DNA from: Oscillospiraceae bacterium
Lineage (GTDB): Bacteria; Bacillota; Clostridia; Oscillospirales; Oscillospiraceae
NCBI GenBank assembly: GCA_017624645.1
Contig: JAGAMQ010000160.1
Span: forward strand, 1-21,347
Length of the DNA stretch: 21,347 nt
Direction: 5' to 3'
The notes beneath the pieces are model-generated. The model searched no databases. It was not told the origin of the DNA and saw nothing but the letters and a program-made list of their open reading frames with translations. Shown here in pieces: positions 1 to 21,347 of this stretch. How positions within the stretch are numbered: the first letter of the stretch is position 1; each line of letters starts with the position of its first letter. Made by a program: the position numbers and the translations under genes.

Positions 1-112
1 CAAGTTTCTTGCAGGAAGTAACGGATGCGACATAGGTGCCCACGTCGAGCAGCAGATCCTGACCGATAATGACTTGATAATTTCGGGATGCGGTAACGTC
101 AATGGTTGTCAT
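1..112 (-). CDS. aroB: 3-dehydroquinate synthase, N-terminal fragment (runs off the left edge)
   Basis: Only the first 37 codons are in the window. They read MTTIDVTASRNYQVIIGQDL and onwards, which resembles the N-terminus of AroB, where a short beta strand is followed by a Y-x-V-x-I-G motif. AroB is the cytoplasmic, NAD- and metal-dependent enzyme that converts DAHP to 3-dehydroquinate, the second step of the shikimate pathway. The ATG overlaps the tyrA stop codon as ATGA, so it is probably translationally coupled to tyrA. Context supports the call strongly: DAHP synthase, which makes the AroB substrate, is two genes upstream in the same operon. The catalytic part lies outside the window, so integrity cannot be judged. 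Confidence 0.85.
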   Translation of the reverse strand, partial: MTTIDVTASRNYQVIIGQDLLLDVGTYVASVTSCKKL

Positions 113-939
113 CCGTCTACCTCCTCCTTGCGCCTTCTGCCCTCATCCAAAAGAGAGAACAGCGATTGTTCATCCACTTCATCGATTGCTTTTCTGTATG
201 CCATAAGATTGTCTAAAAGGGTATCCAGTTCCTCTAGAATGTTTTTTCTGTTGGAAAGGAATAATTCGGTCCACATTTGCGGGTTCAGCCATGCAACGCG
301 AGTAAGATCCTTGTAGCTGCCTGCAGAAAAACCGCTGTGAGACAGGGCAGTGGGAGACTTGATAAATGCATTACTGATAATGTGGGGCATTTGGGATGTA
401 AATGCAATCATTTGGTCATGTTCCTCTGCGGTGGTCACTGAATAGGATTTGAAACCGCAGGGAGAAAGTGCATCCTTAACCCGCTGCAAAAGAACAGGGT
501 CGTCGAATTTGGGCGGTACGATTACCATAGGAGCGCCCTGAAAGAGATTCGAGCGGCTGTATTTGAAGCCGGAATTGTGAGAACCGGCCATGGGGTGACC
601 ACCCACAAAGGTAAAACCGAATTGTTCCGCTAACGGGAAGCAACGTCTGCAGATGTCCTTCTTAATGCCGCAGCAATCCATCACCAAAGCATTGGAATTA
701 ATGTATCCGGCATTTCTTTCCAACCATCCGGCAGAGGCATCTGCGTATACACAAAGTAATACCAATTCGCATGTATCAAGATTGTTCTCATCCAGTTTGT
801 CCGCCACGGCACCGGAAAGCTGTGCGAAAGTCAGCATGCTTTCGTCTTGATCCCAGGCATAAACACGGTGTCCTGCCTTGGCGTAGGCCCGGGCAAAGGA
901 ACCGCCGATTAAGCCAAGACCTAAAATACCTACATTCAT
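109..939 (-). CDS. tyrA: Prephenate dehydrogenase without ACT domain
   Basis: 276 residues. The protein opens with a Rossmann dinucleotide motif GLGLIGGS (residues 7-14) and carries the family motif GGHPMAGS (about 113-120), followed by the helical dimerisation domain with FTSQMPHIIS. This is prephenate dehydrogenase, which oxidatively decarboxylates prephenate to 4-hydroxyphenylpyruvate on the way to tyrosine in the cytoplasm. An arogenate-using enzyme cannot be excluded. The length fits the catalytic core only; the C-terminal ACT domain found in many Bacillus-type TyrA proteins (about 370 residues) is absent, so tyrosine feedback through that domain is not expected. The reading frame is open further upstream, but the ATG at 939 has GGAGG seven bases before it (947-951) and gives the exact Rossmann start. 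It overlaps the aroF stop by four bases (ATGA) and overlaps aroB downstream in the same way. Confidence 0.93.
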   Translation of the reverse strand: MNVGILGLGLIGGSFARAYAKAGHRVYAWDQDESMLTFAQLSGAVADKLDENNLDTCELVLLCVYADASAGWLERNAGYINSNALVMDCCGIKKDICRRCFPLAEQFGFTFVGGHPMAGSHNSGFKYSRSNLFQGAPMVIVPPKFDDPVLLQRVKDALSPCGFKSYSVTTAEEHDQMIAFTSQMPHIISNAFIKSPTALSHSGFSAGSYKDLTRVAWLNPQMWTELFLSNRKNILEELDTLLDNLMAYRKAIDEVDEQSLFSLLDEGRRRKEEVDG

Positions 940-1937
940 TGAATTGCCTCCCGAACCCTTTTCACAGCATGGGCCAACTGTGTAAACTGGGCAGGTGTGA
1001 TGGACTGGGCACCGTCGCACAGGGCGCAGGAAGGATTATTATGAACCTCGACCATGATTCCGTCTGCACCGCAGGCTGCGGCAGCAAGGGCCATGGAGGG
1101 TACAAGCTGTGCCCTGCCGGTGGCGTGGCTGGGATCCACTACGACAGGCAGGTGCGTCAATTCGTGAAGCACAGGTACAGCGGAAAGGTCCAGGGTGTTT
1201 CTCGTGTAGGTTTCGTAGGTGCGAATTCCACGCTCACAAAGAATTATGTTTTCGTTTCCTTCGCTCATAATATATTCCGCGCTCATAAGAAGCTCCTGGA
1301 GTGTGTTGGCAAGACCTCTTTTCAGAAGGATAGGCTTTTTGGTTTTGCCCAGCTCCTGCAAAAGATCAAAATTCTGCATATTTCTGGCACCCACCTGAAT
1401 GATGTCCACCTCTTCAAAAAGCGCAAGGGAACGGACGTTCATGATCTCTGTAATGATCGGCAGCCCCGAGACCTTTTTTGCTTCCAGCAGTAATTTCAGT
1501 CCTTGCTCCTTCAAGCCCTGAAATGCATAGGGGGATGTACGAGGCTTGAATGCACCACCGCGTAAAACATCAGCGCCGCCTTCTTTAACTTCGTTGGCGA
1601 TACCGATGATCTGTTCAGAGGATTCTACAGAGCAGGGACCAGCGATCATTGCAAAAAAGCCACCGCCGATCTTGACGTTACCGGCCTCAATAATACTGTC
1701 GTTGGGATGAAATTTTCTGTTAGCCTGTTTAAAAGGCTCAGAGACGCGTTTTACGGAATCCACAATTTCAAGACTGGTAAGCAATTCCATATCCACTCGG
1801 CTGGTATCACCCACAAGGCCCAATACTGTGACCTCCTGACCGGAGGAAACATGGACGTCAAGATTCATTGTCTTAAGCCAGCGGATCAAATGATCTGTCT
1901 GCTCAGCGGTTGTACCTCTTTTAAGAACTGCAATCAT
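936..1937 (-). CDS. aroF: 3-deoxy-7-phosphoheptulonate (DAHP) synthase, type I beta with N-terminal regulatory domain
   Basis: 333 residues. It condenses phosphoenolpyruvate and erythrose-4-phosphate, the committed step of aromatic amino acid synthesis. Residues about 1-65 form the ferredoxin-like (ACT-like) regulatory domain seen in the Thermotoga maritima enzyme, and the rest is the TIM barrel. Visible motifs are AGPCS (99-103), KPRTS (131-135), GARNMQ, LCERGIRTYE, DPSHATG and EVHNNP. The expected metal ligands are all present: Cys102, His271, Glu297 and Asp308. In the family the N-terminal domain mediates inhibition by Tyr and/or Phe, so feedback control is likely. The start ATG has AGGAGG seven bases upstream (1945-1950). 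It is the first enzyme gene of an aroF-tyrA-aroB operon and is preceded by a Tyr/Phe-rich leader peptide and attenuator. There is no fused chorismate mutase domain. Confidence 0.96.
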   Translation of the reverse strand: MIAVLKRGTTAEQTDHLIRWLKTMNLDVHVSSGQEVTVLGLVGDTSRVDMELLTSLEIVDSVKRVSEPFKQANRKFHPNDSIIEAGNVKIGGGFFAMIAGPCSVESSEQIIGIANEVKEGGADVLRGGAFKPRTSPYAFQGLKEQGLKLLLEAKKVSGLPIITEIMNVRSLALFEEVDIIQVGARNMQNFDLLQELGKTKKPILLKRGLANTLQELLMSAEYIMSEGNENIILCERGIRTYETYTRNTLDLSAVPVLHELTHLPVVVDPSHATGRAQLVPSMALAAAACGADGIMVEVHNNPSCALCDGAQSITPAQFTQLAHAVKRVREAIQ

Positions 1938-1944
1938 GGAAAAA

Positions 1945-1990
1945 CCTCCTAAAAATGGAAATACCGCACAGAATCGGCTCTGTGCGGCAA
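1945..1990 (-). terminator. Terminator-like hairpin of the aroF attenuator
   Basis: On the minus strand CCGCACAGA (1987-1979) pairs perfectly with TCTGTGCGG (1972-1964) around a six-base loop. A G-U and a U-A pair can extend it to 11 bp. It is followed by TATTTCCATTTTT and then directly by the aroF AGGAGG. The U-tract is interrupted by CCA, so termination strength is uncertain. Its place between a leader peptide and the first structural gene is that of an attenuation terminator. An upstream strand (2026-2018) can pair with its 5' arm instead. Confidence 0.7.
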
Positions 1991-2017
1991 TTAATACAAA
2001 AGTCTACGGATTTTGGT

Positions 2018-2076
2018 GCAGCACAAGTCGCTATTACTTTTTTACATAAAAAAAGTAATAGTAGGAATCGAACTTG
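2018..2076 (-). promoter_or_regulatory. Attenuator RNA: pause/protector hairpin and alternative antiterminator strand
   Basis: A 13-bp perfect inverted repeat (2031-2043 with 2049-2061, five-base loop) covers the YYYFFY codons and the stop codons of the leader peptide. Further pairing is possible: CAAGTTCG (2076-2069) with CGACTTG (2030-2024, one bulge), and GTGGCAG just upstream with CTGCAC. The strand TTGTGCTGC (2026-2018) belongs to this structure but can instead pair with GCCGCACAG (1988-1980), the 5' arm of the terminator, with one mismatch and one G-U pair. An inner CAAAA/TTTTG pair (2015-2011 with 2001-1997) fits inside that loop. A ribosome stalled on Tyr or Phe codons would open the first hairpin and favour the antiterminator. 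The pairings were drawn by eye, without energy calculation. Confidence 0.65.
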
Positions 2077-2093
2077 ACTGCCACATTCTGCAT
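2034..2093 (-). CDS. Aromatic-rich leader peptide of the aroF attenuator
   Basis: A 19-residue open frame reads MQNVAVKFDSYYYFFYVKK and ends in tandem stops TAA TAG. Seven residues are aromatic (four Tyr, three Phe), six of them consecutive at positions 11-16. The start has GGAGG nine bases upstream (2103-2107), and a strong promoter lies about 25 bases before it, so it would be the first thing translated on the aroF transcript. The peptide has no expected function of its own. As with the enterobacterial pheA and pheST leaders, the ribosome would sense charged tRNA-Tyr and tRNA-Phe while reading it and decide whether the downstream terminator forms. It overlaps a 13-bp hairpin and is followed by antiterminator and terminator segments. 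The product of the operon, DAHP synthase plus prephenate dehydrogenase, matches the amino acids sensed. Too short for usual gene finders. Confidence 0.85.
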   Translation of the reverse strand: MQNVAVKFDSYYYFFYVKK

Positions 2094-2123
2094 AGAACAG
2101 AACCTCCATAAAAGATTAGTCCC

Positions 2124-2152
2124 ATTGTATCACCATGGATTTCAATTTGCAA
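2124..2152 (-). promoter_or_regulatory. Sigma-A promoter of the aroF-tyrA-aroB operon
   Basis: On the minus strand TTGCAA (2152-2147) and TACAAT (2129-2124) are separated by exactly 17 bases. Transcription should start near 2117, about ten bases before the leader peptide ribosome-binding site. It lies downstream of the terminator of the kinase-like gene, so the aromatic operon is an independent unit. Confidence 0.75.
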
Positions 2153-2219: not shown

Positions 2220-5200
2220 TTATGCTTTCACAGTAAAGGCTTGTTCGCCTACCAAAGCTCCGTTAAAATAAACAGACACAGTGTAGTTGCCCGCTGCGGA
2301 GGGGAGAGCGGGAATGTTAAACTCTCCGTAATTCTTGTGCCACATGGAAGACCACTTTTTGCTTTGGTTTGCGATACTGACAACATTGTTGTTATTGTCA
2401 CGGATTGCAAATTGGATGGTAACCTGATCAGAGGAAATGCCGTATTGTCCGCTGATATGCATCAGGAAAGAGGCTTTTTCGCCGCTCTTGAAACTGGTGG
2501 TATAGTCGGATTTGGAAAGATCATGCCGATCCCAGTTTTGTTTGCGGGGCGTCTTACACATTCTCAGATCGATTCTGTTTGCAGAAACCTTATATGCGTT
2601 GAACTTTTCTGCATCCCTGGTGGTAAGCTGCGCTGTACCCCCGAGAATGGGATTTCCGGATGCGGTCTGCAGTGTGAATGTGTATTTTGAACCGGGCAAA
2701 GGATAGATAAGAGCAGTGTTGCTGCCGCCCTCTACCACAATCTCCTGAATTGGAGAACCGTCAACCTGATAGCAAATCTTGACCTGAGCTTCTCCATCTG
2801 TGTTGAGGCTGCCCCAGGAAAGCTTTACCGTACTTTCCTCTGTTTGAACCGCTTCAAAATCCTTAACGGTAACAGAGTTCTTTTCGATAACGACTCTCTC
2901 GCTGACGCTCATTCCGGCAGCAGTGACCTCAAGGGTGTAGCCGTCTGTGGTGGTGATATCCTCCAATACTACGGAGTTGGTGTCTACAACCACAGTCTTA
3001 TCATAACCGTTGTCGTTGTAGCAATGGACGGTCCAGCTATCAACGGAAGCATCCTGGGGTACCGACCAACCGGCTTCCAGCTTGCCGTCAGCACAAGATG
3101 TAACAGCGAGGCCTTCGGCACGGACCAGTTTTTTGGCAACATGTGTGGTTTTGTTGTTACCTGTAACATAGAGCTCGGTTGCAGGATACAGCTCAAAGGT
3201 GTACTCAGTTCCAACGGTCAGACCCGTCAATGTGTACATGTGGCCGGTAAACAGTGCTTCCCTGGGTTCTGCACCGGTAACACCGTATACCAGCTTCCAC
3301 TGATCCACATCGGGACCTTCAATGGCAAATCCAATAACTGCGCTGCCATCTTCGGTGCCGGTAACAGCTCCAAACTGAACGATTTCCGTACGAACAGGCG
3401 TTGTATAAGCAGTGGTTGTTTCGCCCTTAAGCTTGTGGAAGCCCTTGATTGCTAGCTCTACTCTATAGGCAGAGTCTGGAGCAAGATCTGTAAAGACAGC
3501 TTTTCCGTCAACCACAGGCTGCACAGTCTGAATTCCGTAGGTGTCGGTGCAGATGACAGAAAGCAACTCGTCATTAATTTGTGAATCCACGTAAACCGTC
3601 AAATGATCCTCGCTGCCTTCCAGACTGATGGAATCAACCAGCTGAAGGTAGAAGTTTTTGTAGAAGAAATATCCGCCAACCAGCAGCGCAAGGATCAGCA
3701 ACACAATAAAGGTATTACGGACCCAGTGGCTCTTGGGTTTTGCTGCGGGGACTTCCTCGGTCGCATCAGTATCCCCAGACGCTTCGGTATCTTCAGGAAT
3801 TTCCTCGTGGGATGTTTCTTCTGAATCTTCGGGTTCTATATTGGAGACTTCATCTGCGTCACAGGATTTCACTTCATCAATTTCTTCCGCCTGGGGTTCC
3901 TGTTCCGGAACGGCATCTTCAGGACCGTCCTGCTGATCCTGTTCTGGTTCTGCCTCCGTAAACTCAGGGGGCAGAGTTACCTCAATGGCCTCGGGCGGGA
4001 TCACGGGATCCGGGGTAGGATGGGAGATGAGATCGTCAGCTTGGTTAAGAATATCAGACACCTCAACAGATATCTGATCATAATCCACATCCGCGGTGTC
4101 CTCGCCGGGGAGTGTTTCATCAGAGGAAAGCTCTTCCAGGAAGGAAAGATTACCAAAATCATCCTCTGTAAATACGCTTTCGTTGGTACTGCTCTGGGTG
4201 TTTTCTTCAACTGCCTGCGAATCCGTCATAACATCTGCAGTTTCCGTGATTTCGTTATGTACCGAATCTTCGGTGCAGACAGTCTGGGTTTGCGTTTCTG
4301 CTTCGGGAATATCTCCGGTAGCCTCATCCTCAAAGGATTCGTCATCCGTTTCCTCGTTTTGAGGTTGCTCTGCCTCGGGGGGTATTGGAGGGACAATGGG
4401 AGTATCATGGGCACCGTTTCTTTGCATATAGCTCACGATTGCCTGACCCATCTCTATGGGATCCTGCCAACGTTCCTTGGGATCAGAGGCGCAGGCCTTC
4501 AGGATGATCTCAGCGATTTCGTAATCCGCATAATCGGGAGGAGGCAGTTGCCCATCCACCTGTGGAAGAACACCGCCGTTGAAGGCCTGGTATAGAATCA
4601 ATCCGGCAGCATAAACATCAATAGTGGTGTTCAGACTGGAATAGGCATCTTCAATTTCCGGAGCTGTGTATGCACTACGGTATCTGTCGGGAAGGGATGC
4701 ATATTTCAAAGCATCCAGTTTCAAAAAACCAATATCGCCGATGCGGTAGCCTTGATCCTGGGTCAAATATATATTTTCCGGTTTCAAGGCCACATACAGG
4801 TATCCGCTTTGTCTTGCAACAGCAAGGGCGGCACAAAGATCCAAACCAAGATTTAACGCGCCAAGATGCGTCATGGTATTCTTGGACAGATACCTGGCAA
4901 GGGATTTGCGGTAGGGGCTGAGCAAATAAACATCAAAGCCGCATCCATCCACCATGGGTTCAATCTGCTGATCTTCATAGCAAAAGAAGCCCTCAAGGTT
5001 AGAAAGTCTCTGCAGGATTTTGGTCTCTTCAAGAATCCCGTTTGCAACACTTTCGTAATATGCAAGGGCATCCGCCTTGTCGGAATATGCACCGCTGAGC
5101 AGCAACGCTTCCAATTGGGAAGGGGAAGCCGGAATAGAAATGATCTTAACGATATATTTATCTTCGGAATCTTTTTTCATTGCAGGGCAGGCTTTGATGC

Positions 5201-5273
5201 CCCCGCGATCACTCATAGGATCACCCATAATAAAGGGATCGAGCAATGGCGAAATCAGCTTGGGTTCTGACAC
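2220..5273 (-). CDS. Membrane-anchored protein kinase-like protein (probable pseudokinase) with fibronectin-III-like ectodomain
   Basis: 1017 residues. Residues 20-285 have a Ser/Thr kinase fold: Lys43 in IVKII, a C-helix region, LKPEN (163-167), DIG (180-182) in place of DFG, and APE (204-206). The HRD triad is Tyr160-Val161-Ala162, so the catalytic base Asp is missing, and the glycine loop is degenerate. It may bind nucleotide without phosphorylating. Residues 290-515 are a long acidic, low-complexity linker. One membrane helix lies at about 521-538. The rest (about 545-1017) is outside the cell: several beta-rich, fibronectin-III-like repeats and a distinct C-terminal beta domain from about 905. 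PASTA repeats are absent, unlike PrkC. The start is GTG with AGGAGG eight bases upstream (5282-5287); an ATG two bases further up is out of frame and reads only six codons. It is divergent from a zinc-ribbon/Big2 membrane protein. The ligand is unknown. Confidence 0.85.
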   Translation of the reverse strand: MSEPKLISPLLDPFIMGDPMSDRGGIKACPAMKKDSEDKYIVKIISIPASPSQLEALLLSGAYSDKADALAYYESVANGILEETKILQRLSNLEGFFCYEDQQIEPMVDGCGFDVYLLSPYRKSLARYLSKNTMTHLGALNLGLDLCAALAVARQSGYLYVALKPENIYLTQDQGYRIGDIGFLKLDALKYASLPDRYRSAYTAPEIEDAYSSLNTTIDVYAAGLILYQAFNGGVLPQVDGQLPPPDYADYEIAEIILKACASDPKERWQDPIEMGQAIVSYMQRNGAHDTPIVPPIPPEAEQPQNEETDDESFEDEATGDIPEAETQTQTVCTEDSVHNEITETADVMTDSQAVEENTQSSTNESVFTEDDFGNLSFLEELSSDETLPGEDTADVDYDQISVEVSDILNQADDLISHPTPDPVIPPEAIEVTLPPEFTEAEPEQDQQDGPEDAVPEQEPQAEEIDEVKSCDADEVSNIEPEDSEETSHEEIPEDTEASGDTDATEEVPAAKPKSHWVRNTFIVLLILALLVGGYFFYKNFYLQLVDSISLEGSEDHLTVYVDSQINDELLSVICTDTYGIQTVQPVVDGKAVFTDLAPDSAYRVELAIKGFHKLKGETTTAYTTPVRTEIVQFGAVTGTEDGSAVIGFAIEGPDVDQWKLVYGVTGAEPREALFTGHMYTLTGLTVGTEYTFELYPATELYVTGNNKTTHVAKKLVRAEGLAVTSCADGKLEAGWSVPQDASVDSWTVHCYNDNGYDKTVVVDTNSVVLEDITTTDGYTLEVTAAGMSVSERVVIEKNSVTVKDFEAVQTEESTVKLSWGSLNTDGEAQVKICYQVDGSPIQEIVVEGGSNTALIYPLPGSKYTFTLQTASGNPILGGTAQLTTRDAEKFNAYKVSANRIDLRMCKTPRKQNWDRHDLSKSDYTTSFKSGEKASFLMHISGQYGISSDQVTIQFAIRDNNNNVVSIANQSKKWSSMWHKNYGEFNIPALPSAAGNYTVSVYFNGALVGEQAFTVKA

Positions 5274-18993: not shown

Positions 18994-21347
18994 TTAACGC
19001 AATGTTGCGCCGATCTTCTCATTGAGAGCGGTCAAAACCTTGGATACAACGCCCTCAGAATCGGCATCTGTCAAAGTGCGGTCGTCTGCCCGAAGAATCA
19101 GGGAGAATGCCAGACTCTTCTTTCCTTCGGGGACACCCGTTCCCTTATAGATGTCAAAGAGCTGCACCTTCTTCAGAAGCTTTCCGGCAGATCGTGCAAT
19201 AATTTCCTCCACTGAGCCTACCGTTACATCTTCATCGCAAATGAGAGAAATATCTCTGGTAACCGCAGGGTATTTGGGCAGGGGAACATAGGTGGGATCC
19301 GGCTTTTTCAGATCAAACAGAGCGGTGAAATTGATTTCTGCACAGTAAACCTCACAGTCGATGCCGTAATTTTTTGCCACCAGGGGATGTACCTGACCCA
19401 TGTAGCCCAGGTGGATCTCTCCGATGCTGACTGCGGCACAACGACCGGGATGGTAAGAGGGATTGTCCTTAACAGCGGTATAGGTTGCTTCCGGCAGGTT
19501 AAGTCCGGCAATAATACCATTCAGATCACCCTTGAGAGAGAAGAAGTTTTCGCCCTCGCCATAGGTGCCAAGAACCAGCATTTTAGGTTCTGCAGGCAAA
19601 GCCTCATCTTCGACCGGCTGATAGATTTTGGCAAGCTCATAGAGTTTGGCGCACTTGTTGTGATATGCATTGTTTCTGGAAAGAATGTCAAGCATAGACG
19701 GAAGTGCAATGGTACGCATCACAGAGGTGTCTTCGCCCAAAGGATTTTGAATCTTCATGGTGTTTCGCAGAACGGAATCTTCAGGAATTCGGATCTGATC
19801 AAAGATAGAAGGGGAAACAAAGGAGTAGGTGATGATCTCGCTGTAGCCCAGGCTGCGGCAAAGGCTGCCTGCTTTGTTTTCCATGATCATTACAGGAGAG
19901 TAGCCGCCCTGTGTGGATGTCTTGAAGGCTGTTGTGGGAATTTCGTTATAACCGAAGGATCGGCCTACCTCTTCAGCAATGTCTGCCATAAGATTCAGGT
20001 CCGGACGGAAAGAGGGGACCAAAATGGTATCACCTTCCACAGGGATCTCCAAAAGCTGCAGGTACTTGACCATATCTTCCTTAGAGATGGCAGTTCCCAG
20101 AAGTTTGTTGATCTTCTCCGGCTCAAGGGGGAGTGTCCTAGGCTGGGGAACATAGTTGACGATATCGATAATGCCATCCATGACATCACCTGCACCCAGC
20201 ATTTCTACCAATTCGCAGGCTCGCTCCACTGCAGGTACGGTCATCATGGGATCCAGGTTCTTTTCAAACTTGCCGGAGGCATCGGTACGCATACCCAAAG
20301 CCAACGCAGTCTGGCGGATAGAAGTGCCGTTGAAGTTGGCGGATTCAAACACAACTATGCTGGTATCCTCGGTAATTTCAGAGTTTTCGCCACCCATAAT
20401 GCCCGCAAGACCGATGGCCTTTTCATCATCGGCAATTACAAGCATGCCCGGGGTCAGCTGGCGCTGAACGCCGTCAAGGGTCGTCAGAGACTCGCCGCTT
20501 TCTGCTTCCCGAACCACGATCTTTCCGGAGCCCACATACCGGTAATCGAAGGCATGCATAGGCTGACCGTACTCCAGCATGACATAGTTGGTGATGTCCA
20601 CGATGTTGTTGATGGGACGAATACCGTTGGCACGCAGCCGCTGACGCATCCACTTGGGAGAGGGGCCAATCTTGACATTCTTGACCATGCGTGAGGTATA
20701 GCGATTGCAAAGAGTCTCCGCAGGAACCTCAACATCCAGCATTTCAAAGACAGAACCTGCATCGCTTCCCTTTACTTGGGGTGTGTGGTGGCGCATCTGC
20801 ATACCAAAGGCAGCGGCAGCTTCCCGTGCCAAACCGATAACAGAATAGCAGTCGGGACGGTTGTTGGTGATCTCGAATTCTACAACAGTATCATCGTTGC
20901 CGATAACCAAATTGATGTCGTCGCCAACCTTGCAGTCTTCCTCGTTAAGAATCCAAATGCCGTCAGCAAAGACACCGGGCAGGTCGTTCTGGGTCAGTCC
21001 CAGCTCCGCAAAGGAGCACAGCATGCCGTTGGACTTTTCACCCCGAAGCTTGCCCTTAGTGATATGGATACCACCGGGAAGCCAGGAGTTATGCAGTGCC
21101 ACAGGAACCAAGTCACCCTGATTCACATTCTGTGCGCCGGTAACGATCTGCACAGGCTCTTCCTGTCCCACATCCAGCTGGCAAACCCACATATGATCCG
21201 AGTTTTCGTGGCGAAGGATAGAAAGCACCTTGCCTACGACAACATTTTTAATTTCTTCATCCATCCGCTGATAGGTCTCTACCTTTTGACCAAAAACCGT
21301 CAGCTTCTCAACAAACTCTTTATCGGAAACATGGGAAAGATCCACAA
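18994..21347 (-). CDS. pheT: Phenylalanyl-tRNA synthetase beta chain, lacking its first few codons (runs off the right edge)
   Basis: 783 residues are visible of about 795 expected. The frame is open to the window edge; the first in-frame start-like codon, GTG at 21345, reads as Val in the conserved VDLSHVSDKEF and is not the true start. Visible parts: the OB-fold tRNA-binding domain (about 40-150, with GKLRGEKSNGMLCS), the B3/B4 editing domain, the B5 domain, the catalytic-like core, and the C-terminal ferredoxin-fold anticodon-binding domain (YPAVTRDISLICDEDVTVG and onwards). With PheS it forms the tetrameric enzyme that charges tRNA-Phe; the beta chain also hydrolyses Tyr-tRNA-Phe. pheS should lie just beyond the right edge. 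No frameshift or missing motif is seen. Confidence 0.96.
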   Translation of the reverse strand, partial: VDLSHVSDKEFVEKLTVFGQKVETYQRMDEEIKNVVVGKVLSILRHENSDHMWVCQLDVGQEEPVQIVTGAQNVNQGDLVPVALHNSWLPGGIHITKGKLRGEKSNGMLCSFAELGLTQNDLPGVFADGIWILNEEDCKVGDDINLVIGNDDTVVEFEITNNRPDCYSVIGLAREAAAAFGMQMRHHTPQVKGSDAGSVFEMLDVEVPAETLCNRYTSRMVKNVKIGPSPKWMRQRLRANGIRPINNIVDITNYVMLEYGQPMHAFDYRYVGSGKIVVREAESGESLTTLDGVQRQLTPGMLVIADDEKAIGLAGIMGGENSEITEDTSIVVFESANFNGTSIRQTALALGMRTDASGKFEKNLDPMMTVPAVERACELVEMLGAGDVMDGIIDIVNYVPQPRTLPLEPEKINKLLGTAISKEDMVKYLQLLEIPVEGDTILVPSFRPDLNLMADIAEEVGRSFGYNEIPTTAFKTSTQGGYSPVMIMENKAGSLCRSLGYSEIITYSFVSPSIFDQIRIPEDSVLRNTMKIQNPLGEDTSVMRTIALPSMLDILSRNNAYHNKCAKLYELAKIYQPVEDEALPAEPKMLVLGTYGEGENFFSLKGDLNGIIAGLNLPEATYTAVKDNPSYHPGRCAAVSIGEIHLGYMGQVHPLVAKNYGIDCEVYCAEINFTALFDLKKPDPTYVPLPKYPAVTRDISLICDEDVTVGSVEEIIARSAGKLLKKVQLFDIYKGTGVPEGKKSLAFSLILRADDRTLTDADSEGVVSKVLTALNEKIGATLR

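Follow-up and report, generated by a model that had tools for sequence, protein, structure and literature searches.

Organisation of the aroF locus

The window analysed here is a 21,347-nucleotide stretch of DNA from an Oscillospiraceae bacterium (contig JAGAMQ010000160.1 of assembly GCA_017624645.1). Two genes of aromatic amino acid synthesis lie near its beginning on the minus strand. The first, aroF (936..1937), encodes 3-deoxy-7-phosphoheptulonate (DAHP) synthase according to Pfam PF00793 and NCBIfam PRK08673. The second, tyrA (109..939), encodes prephenate dehydrogenase according to Pfam PF02153 and PF20463, and its ATG overlaps the aroF stop codon (ATGA). The contig of this genome (G000) stops after tyrA, the sole product-branch gene seen there. 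In two relatives, G001 and G011, Pfam matches give the operon as aroF-tyrA-aroB-aroA-aroC-pheA-aroE/K-aroQ, with pheA being chorismate mutase/prephenate dehydratase, aroE/K a shikimate dehydrogenase-shikimate kinase fusion and aroQ a class II dehydroquinase. Prephenate dehydratase was matched in 17 of 19 genus genomes. In 14 of the 17 it lies on the contig and strand of aroF, 5.4–5.6 kb further downstream (in G016 the gene is split at a contig end). In G010, a genome lacking the leader described below, the distance is 4.7 kb, and G000 and G004 have a partial match on another contig only.

Other features of the window were noticed in passing. Upstream of the operon, on the same strand (2220-5273), lies the gene of a 1017-residue protein that has a protein-kinase domain and also matches fibronectin type III; a GC-rich inverted repeat follows its stop codon. 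The phenylalanyl-tRNA synthetase beta chain is located at the opposite window end (18994-21345); its start and any leader lie beyond the contig end. Sporulation genes (SpoIIR, SpoVAD, SpoVAC/AE-type) fit a spore-forming Gram-positive bacterium.

The leader of aroF-tyrA is arranged entirely on the minus strand. It starts with a promoter-like site, TTGCAA-17-TACAAT, at 2152-2124 with an extended -10 (TG before the second hexamer). Of the 38 genus relatives, 35 have the looser pattern TTGnnn-16..18-TAnnnT ahead of the leader, against 26 of 380 shuffles. A ribosome-binding site GGAGG (2107-2103) precedes a frame of 19 codons, MQNVAVKFDSYYYFFYVKK, which runs from the ATG at 2093 to the tandem stops UAA UAG (2093-2031; TAA at 2036-2034, TAG at 2033-2031) and is conserved among relatives. 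Within this frame, the aromatic run Tyr-Tyr-Tyr-Phe-Phe-Tyr (YYYFFY) occupies 2063-2046, as read from the sequence and the alignment of relatives. The minimum free energy (MFE) fold of 1940-2125 (–60.3 kcal/mol, z –5.1, none of 200 shuffles as stable) contains a 13-pair hairpin over the aromatic codons. The arms of this hairpin, called 1:2, are 2061-2050 and 2042-2031, and both stop codons are on the 3′ arm. Downstream of it lies segment 2b, CUUGUGCUGC, at 2027-2018, which alignment and covariation suggest as the antiterminator strand. A terminator-like stem of 12 pairs follows at 1989-1962. Its 5′ arm, segment 3 (1989-1979), is the proposed partner of 2b, its 3′ arm is segment 4 (1972-1962), and both arms are marked out by sequence and covariation. 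An interrupted U-tract, UUUUCCAUUUUU, lies in the region 3′ of the stem (1961-1951) and is directly followed by the aroF ribosome-binding site AGGAGG (1950-1945). The preliminary description of this DNA had claimed a promoter, a ribosome-binding site, the 19-residue YYYFFY frame with tandem stops, a 13-bp hairpin over those codons and a terminator-like stem right before aroF. All of these are indeed there, and the promoter-like site reaches partly beyond the interval given for the element. The U-tract had been called the weakest part, and rightly so: of the 9 nt scored, 5 are U, compared with an average of 6.1 (range 3–7) in the alignment of 38 relatives, to which the window belongs.

Conservation of the leader in the genus

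A leader was called when a ribosome-binding site and a frame of 8–45 amino acids with at least six Tyr or Phe in 10 codons were found within 400 nt. The genus set was chosen on aroF identity, independently of the leader: it takes in each distinct upstream region with an aroF of 73% identity or more, 38 in total. All 38 carry the leader, against 0 of 38 on the antisense strand and 3 of 380 dinucleotide shuffles. A chance short frame was rejected on such counts. Counted by genome, aroF was matched in 34 of the 37 genus genomes (the window's own included) and the leader is found in 31 of the 34. The three genomes lacking it, G034, G010 and G035, have a diverged aroF (64%, 62% and 55% identical, respectively). 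The aroF match of G035 starts only at residue 79, which leaves the upstream region of this genome uncertain. In the other two, a hairpin with a T-rich tail lies directly before aroF. Relatives thus keep the short frame, as the preliminary description required of its reading, at an aroF identity of at least 73%, and these three same-genus genomes with diverged aroF do not. A further count over 123 distinct upstream regions used a stricter ribosome-binding site pattern than the counts of 38, 98 and 40 loci in this study, and it gave the leader in 85 of them, against 2 of 1230 shuffles.

The pattern GTAATAGNNNTTTGTGCTGC was searched in 61 genus genomes, sites being counted at any position in the genomes added for this search. 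With up to two mismatches it is present in 49 of the 61. Exactly one site with 0–1 mismatch occurs in 48 of the 49, and the leader site of G017 has two mismatches. There are 14 further sites at two mismatches, and the reversed control pattern gave 15 hits in 13 of the 61 genomes. The named relatives are metagenome-assembled genomes titled Oscillospiraceae, Clostridia or Bacillota bacterium, and one is titled Faecousia.

Trp is absent from the scored windows of the 38 genus leaders. The trpE and IGPS models match none of the 19 genus genomes, of which eight are at least 90% complete, whereas both models give matches in 14 of 14 control genomes (trpE above the cut-off in 5 of the 14). Therefore, the amino acid products of the pathway in this genus are probably Tyr and Phe only, fitting the lack of Trp in the scored leader windows and a sensing of Tyr and Phe only. 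The leaders of G042 and G044 are also rich in Tyr and Phe although trpE is present in both. As an observation in its own right, the lack of any trpE or IGPS match in 19 of 19 genomes (G000–G018) suggests tryptophan auxotrophy.

Spread in the order and the class

Outside the genus, 98 aroF loci of the order were sampled, and 61 of them have the leader (18 of 21 families; antisense 1 of 98, shuffles 4 of 980). Outside the order, 20 of 40 aroF loci of the class have it (18 of 37 families; antisense 0 of 40, shuffles 3 of 400). Because the loci were selected by hand among the listed matches, at roughly one for each genus or family, these counts are not unbiased frequencies, and a few of the calls with six Tyr or Phe may be chance. 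A terminator-like hairpin, defined as at most –12 kcal/mol with a T-rich tail, was found after 79 of the 81 leaders of the order and the class; with that stretch shuffled, the count fell to 6 of 81. Of the 57 loci in which no leader was called, 34 also have such a hairpin before aroF. The preliminary description had called for aligning related aroF upstream regions in search of conserved aromatic runs with covarying hairpins, and this comparison gave a positive outcome at all three levels, genus, order and class. The leader is real, well conserved and apparently widespread.

Other short frames before aroF were noticed in passing. Those of one family (f23; L048, L205, L209, L211) have fewer aromatic residues and share a pattern like RFTGF.YPR.FM, and their conserved non-aromatic residues suggest a different leader variant. 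Three loci of other genera in family f1 (L161, L163, L164) carry related, conserved-looking frames around TTASFLFSFGWARFMGTGFFG, below the criterion of six Tyr or Phe. G091 and G219 each have a second DAHP synthase gene (L162 and L165), and the leader before it is a distinct one with GYGYYRC-YF-SGVSACP.

Compensatory changes and segment 2b

In the 38-sequence alignment, hairpin 1:2 and the terminator together have 93.8% of cells in standard pairs and ten pairs changed on both sides, a level reached in 0 of 500 shuffles. Of the ten, nine fall in the terminator and one, seen in L029, in hairpin 1:2, which hardly varies in the genus. For the 2:3 antiterminator the paired share is 85.8%; three of its pairs changed on both sides (9 of 500 shuffles), and one mismatch persists in all 38 sequences. 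In L005 and L026, segments 2b, 3 and 4 change jointly. Segment 1b (2082-2072), the leader codons that are predicted by folding to hold 2b without a ribosome, pairs with 2b in 67.6% of cells with no covariation signal in the same alignment.

The comparison was widened to 242 distinct upstream regions, which hold 67 sites like 2b. At 55 of these 67 sites (35 in the genus, 20 wider) all 10 pairs of the hairpin core can form, compared with only 30 of 1340 shuffles; the best-pairing site was chosen where there were several, a choice not repeated in the shuffles. Two-sided types appear at the same position, for example A-U/U-A and A-U/C-G. The generic test of the aromatic run against downstream RNA was weak, with p ≤ 0.05 in 14 of 38, 22 of 61 and 4 of 20 leaders. 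In the generic antiterminator test, p ≤ 0.05 was obtained for 21 of 79 wider loci, 13 of 59 from the order and 8 of 20 from the class. Taken as sequence comparisons, the compensatory changes support the aromatic-codon hairpin and the terminator, and argue more weakly for the antiterminator.

Conservation is largely of the RNA: even where a change would be synonymous or would fall outside the frame, CUAUUAC/GUAAUAG and UUUGUGCUGC hardly vary. Among the 242 upstream regions there are 157 leaders, 56 of them with the stricter 2b motif, which lies after the stop codon in 36 and is translated in frames 0, 1 and 2 in 1, 13 and 6, respectively. Because it is untranslated and occurs in three reading frames in the wider family, segment 2b is kept as RNA and not as peptide. 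Its pairing to downstream RNA was mixed in the 21 wider loci with 2b (p from 0.000 to 0.475). Therefore, 2b may serve more than the terminator. In L036, L046, L069, L136 and others, 2b is conserved and its downstream pairing is no better than in shuffles; a further partner or role may exist.

Folding with and without a ribosome

In ribosome-free RNA of the window, the predicted partner of 2b is the leader stretch that precedes the aromatic core (probability 0.88), and its probability of pairing with the core itself is about 0. Over the 38 sequences the upstream pairing has a mean of 0.61 and exceeds 0.5 in 27, while pairing of 2b with segment 3 has a mean of 0.10. The preliminary description had proposed a strand that can pair with either the aromatic hairpin or the terminator. 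A strand with alternative pairings, 2b, is there; its predicted holder is the codons upstream of the aromatic run instead of the aromatic hairpin.

Stalled ribosomes were modelled on 37 of the 38 sequences, L029 being left out as its stop codon is not at the aligned column. When the RNA behind the ribosome was free to pair forwards, the mean probability of the 2:3 pairing with the A site at codons –9 to –5 before the stop was only 0.13–0.25. This RNA was therefore left out of a second model, and leaving it out is an assumption of attenuation models. With only the RNA ahead, P(2:3) at codons –9 to –5 was 1.00 in the window and averaged 0.58–0.79 (37 sequences, front edge +11). In this model, stalls almost anywhere from codon –18 to –1 expose 2b, so the aromatic codon position is not singled out by it. 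A ribosome at the stop codon left P(2:3) at 0.91 when its front edge was set to +11 and blocked the pairing (0.00) only when it was set to +14. The antiterminator is predicted to be weaker than the terminator (mean stability –10.6 against –19.6 kcal/mol). Therefore, its success would have to be kinetic.

Discussion

The element before aroF is very probably a ribosome-mediated leader-peptide transcription attenuator that senses scarce charged tRNA-Tyr and tRNA-Phe and controls the operon of the shikimate pathway and the Tyr/Phe branches. Three traits of this attenuator class are found: a short frame with a ribosome-binding site, a codon run for the product amino acids and a terminator-like hairpin before the first gene, with a weak U-tract in the window. 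A mutually exclusive antiterminator is suggested by complementarity and some covariation in the genus, with model results that vary with the assumptions. From the observed conservation, position, alternative pairings and compensatory changes we infer stalling, termination, read-through and a response to Tyr and Phe as follows. When Tyr and Phe are ample, the ribosome would reach the tandem stops, its front edge would cover 2b and the terminator would form. When it stalls on the Tyr or Phe codons, the ribosome would open hairpin 1:2 and cover the upstream codons that would otherwise hold 2b. The freed 2b could then pair with the 5′ arm of the terminator, and transcription would continue into aroF. 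If no ribosome is present, the leader codons would capture 2b and the terminator would form. The overall picture from the models is consistent with classical attenuation. The preliminary description had the operon sense both charged tRNAs, in agreement with its products. This reading is supported: joint sensing would suit an operon that has both tyrA and pheA in two relatives.

Four other explanations were weighed. One of them, which we consider unlikely, is translational control, with the ribosome position altering access to the aroF ribosome-binding site and not termination. The weak U-tract of the window copy, the aroF ribosome-binding site directly after it and the whole-leader MFE fold, which pairs RNA near this site with the leader 5′ end, all speak for it. 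On the other hand, the conserved hairpin does not include the aroF ribosome-binding site, the U content of the 38 relatives is higher on average (6.1 in the 9 nt scored), and 79 of the 81 wider leaders are followed by a terminator-like hairpin with a T-rich tail. It is very improbable that the short frame makes a functional aromatic micro-peptide whose place before aroF is incidental. The ribosome-binding site, frame and aromatic residues are kept in 38 of 38 genus relatives, as such a peptide would require, but the residues around the aromatic run vary freely, and conservation is largely at the RNA level, as the near-invariance at synonymous and untranslated positions indicates. Segment 2b is untranslated in 36 loci and otherwise falls in frames 0, 1 and 2 (1, 13 and 6). 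A functional peptide as the main explanation was therefore rejected on RNA-level conservation and the frame independence of 2b.

Just as improbable is a T-box, riboswitch or protein-binding leader controlling aroF with the frame being secondary. Rfam T-boxes do precede aroF in two order loci, L050 and L051, as an alternative at the same gene. The window's own genome has 10 T-box matches elsewhere, three of them over the cut-off, so it has both T-box and leader systems. The Rfam trpB motif (RF04312) also matches weakly over 1952-2062, but its 28 bits are far from the gathering cut-off of 59 bits. Before aroF in the window, the T-box model RF00230 gave no match above the cut-off, while the same library finds the T-boxes of L050 and L051. 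Since the window gave no match at or above the cut-off for any Rfam family, a T-box or other Rfam family was rejected, and the absence of a T-box noted in the preliminary description holds. The T-box motif search flagged only L050 and L051 among 100 loci, an Rfam scan of 20 of those loci, most of them lacking a strong leader, found these two again, and the Rfam scan of the 40 class loci was empty. The general expectation that T-boxes serve aromatic genes in these bacteria thus fails for DAHP synthase in the sampled genomes (2 of 100 loci in the motif search, 0 of 40 class loci in the Rfam scan). Finally, we find it hardly credible that the hairpin serves just as a constitutive terminator or as a processing site, with a leader that senses nothing: terminator-like hairpins are also seen where no leader was called (34 of 57 loci), but the Tyr/Phe bias, the covarying aromatic hairpin and segment 2b are left unexplained by this view.

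The attenuator reading has precedents. The aroR-aroF attenuator of Corynebacterium glutamicum is said to have been described by Neshat et al. in 2014. Leader-peptide attenuation at aroF has been reported in that organism (PMC11802643, PMC4046766). According to the parts of these reports on aroR, it is similar in having a short Phe/Tyr leader (Phe-Tyr-Phe) before a DAHP synthase gene of a Gram-positive bacterium, with enhanced transcription on ribosome stalling. It differs in belonging to an actinobacterium and in having three aromatic codons instead of six, the comparison made here being one of descriptions, and its response is described there as being to Phe and not Tyr (PMC11802643). In Acholeplasma, leader-peptide attenuation at aroF was proposed for the uORFC-13-1 motif, in which a uORF with promoter, ribosome-binding site and start codon comes before a terminator stem and aroF (PMC8632094). 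By its description, that motif differs in its source (Acholeplasma and environmental sequences, 24 representatives) and in having at least one Phe codon in a U run; the section on the motif mentions no Tyr run (PMC8632094). Two uORF candidates with Phe and Tyr codons before shikimate genes are alike as far as a figure legend describes them (PMC6429828). His leader-peptide attenuators are described in Firmicutes, Eubacteriales included, as an alternative to T-boxes (PMC9413887, PMC2965389); in the accounts given there they differ from the present leader in their His codons and in preceding his or hisS genes. The enterobacterial pheA and pheST leaders share aromatic codons and terminator control, as summarised in one report (PMC11802643), and are Phe-centred, from another phylum and before other genes; they are likened here by these general features. 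The paper on the trpB motif, in its discussion of that motif, leaves a classical attenuator possible (PMC11109978), and an earlier survey states, where it treats Firmicutes, that no aminoacyl-tRNA synthetase gene was then known with classical attenuation (PMC1262725). No title or opening abstract describing a Tyr/Phe leader before DAHP synthase in Clostridia was found in our literature search, whose scope left out most subscription journals. The Clostridia leader adds to the known leader-peptide attenuators, such as C. glutamicum aroR-aroF and the His leaders of Firmicutes.

Leader-peptide attenuation is thus a known kind of switch that appears to be unexpectedly frequent at aroF among the relatives of this bacterium. 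With somewhat better than even confidence, we propose one ancient RNA family, made of the aromatic-codon hairpin and the frame-independent antiterminator strand UUYGUGCUGC, as the default DAHP synthase switch across much of the class Clostridia, with T-boxes as the rare exception; in a Trp-auxotrophic Oscillospiraceae lineage, a single leader reading Tyr and Phe would govern the shikimate pathway and both end branches. The element, which was recognised by none of the Rfam scans made, offers a mechanism for the control of aromatic amino acid synthesis in Clostridia. It also indicates that leader-peptide attenuation appears often at a gene for which one would expect T-boxes. Since the leader has long runs of both Tyr and Phe codons, the integration of two charged tRNAs by one attenuator becomes testable.
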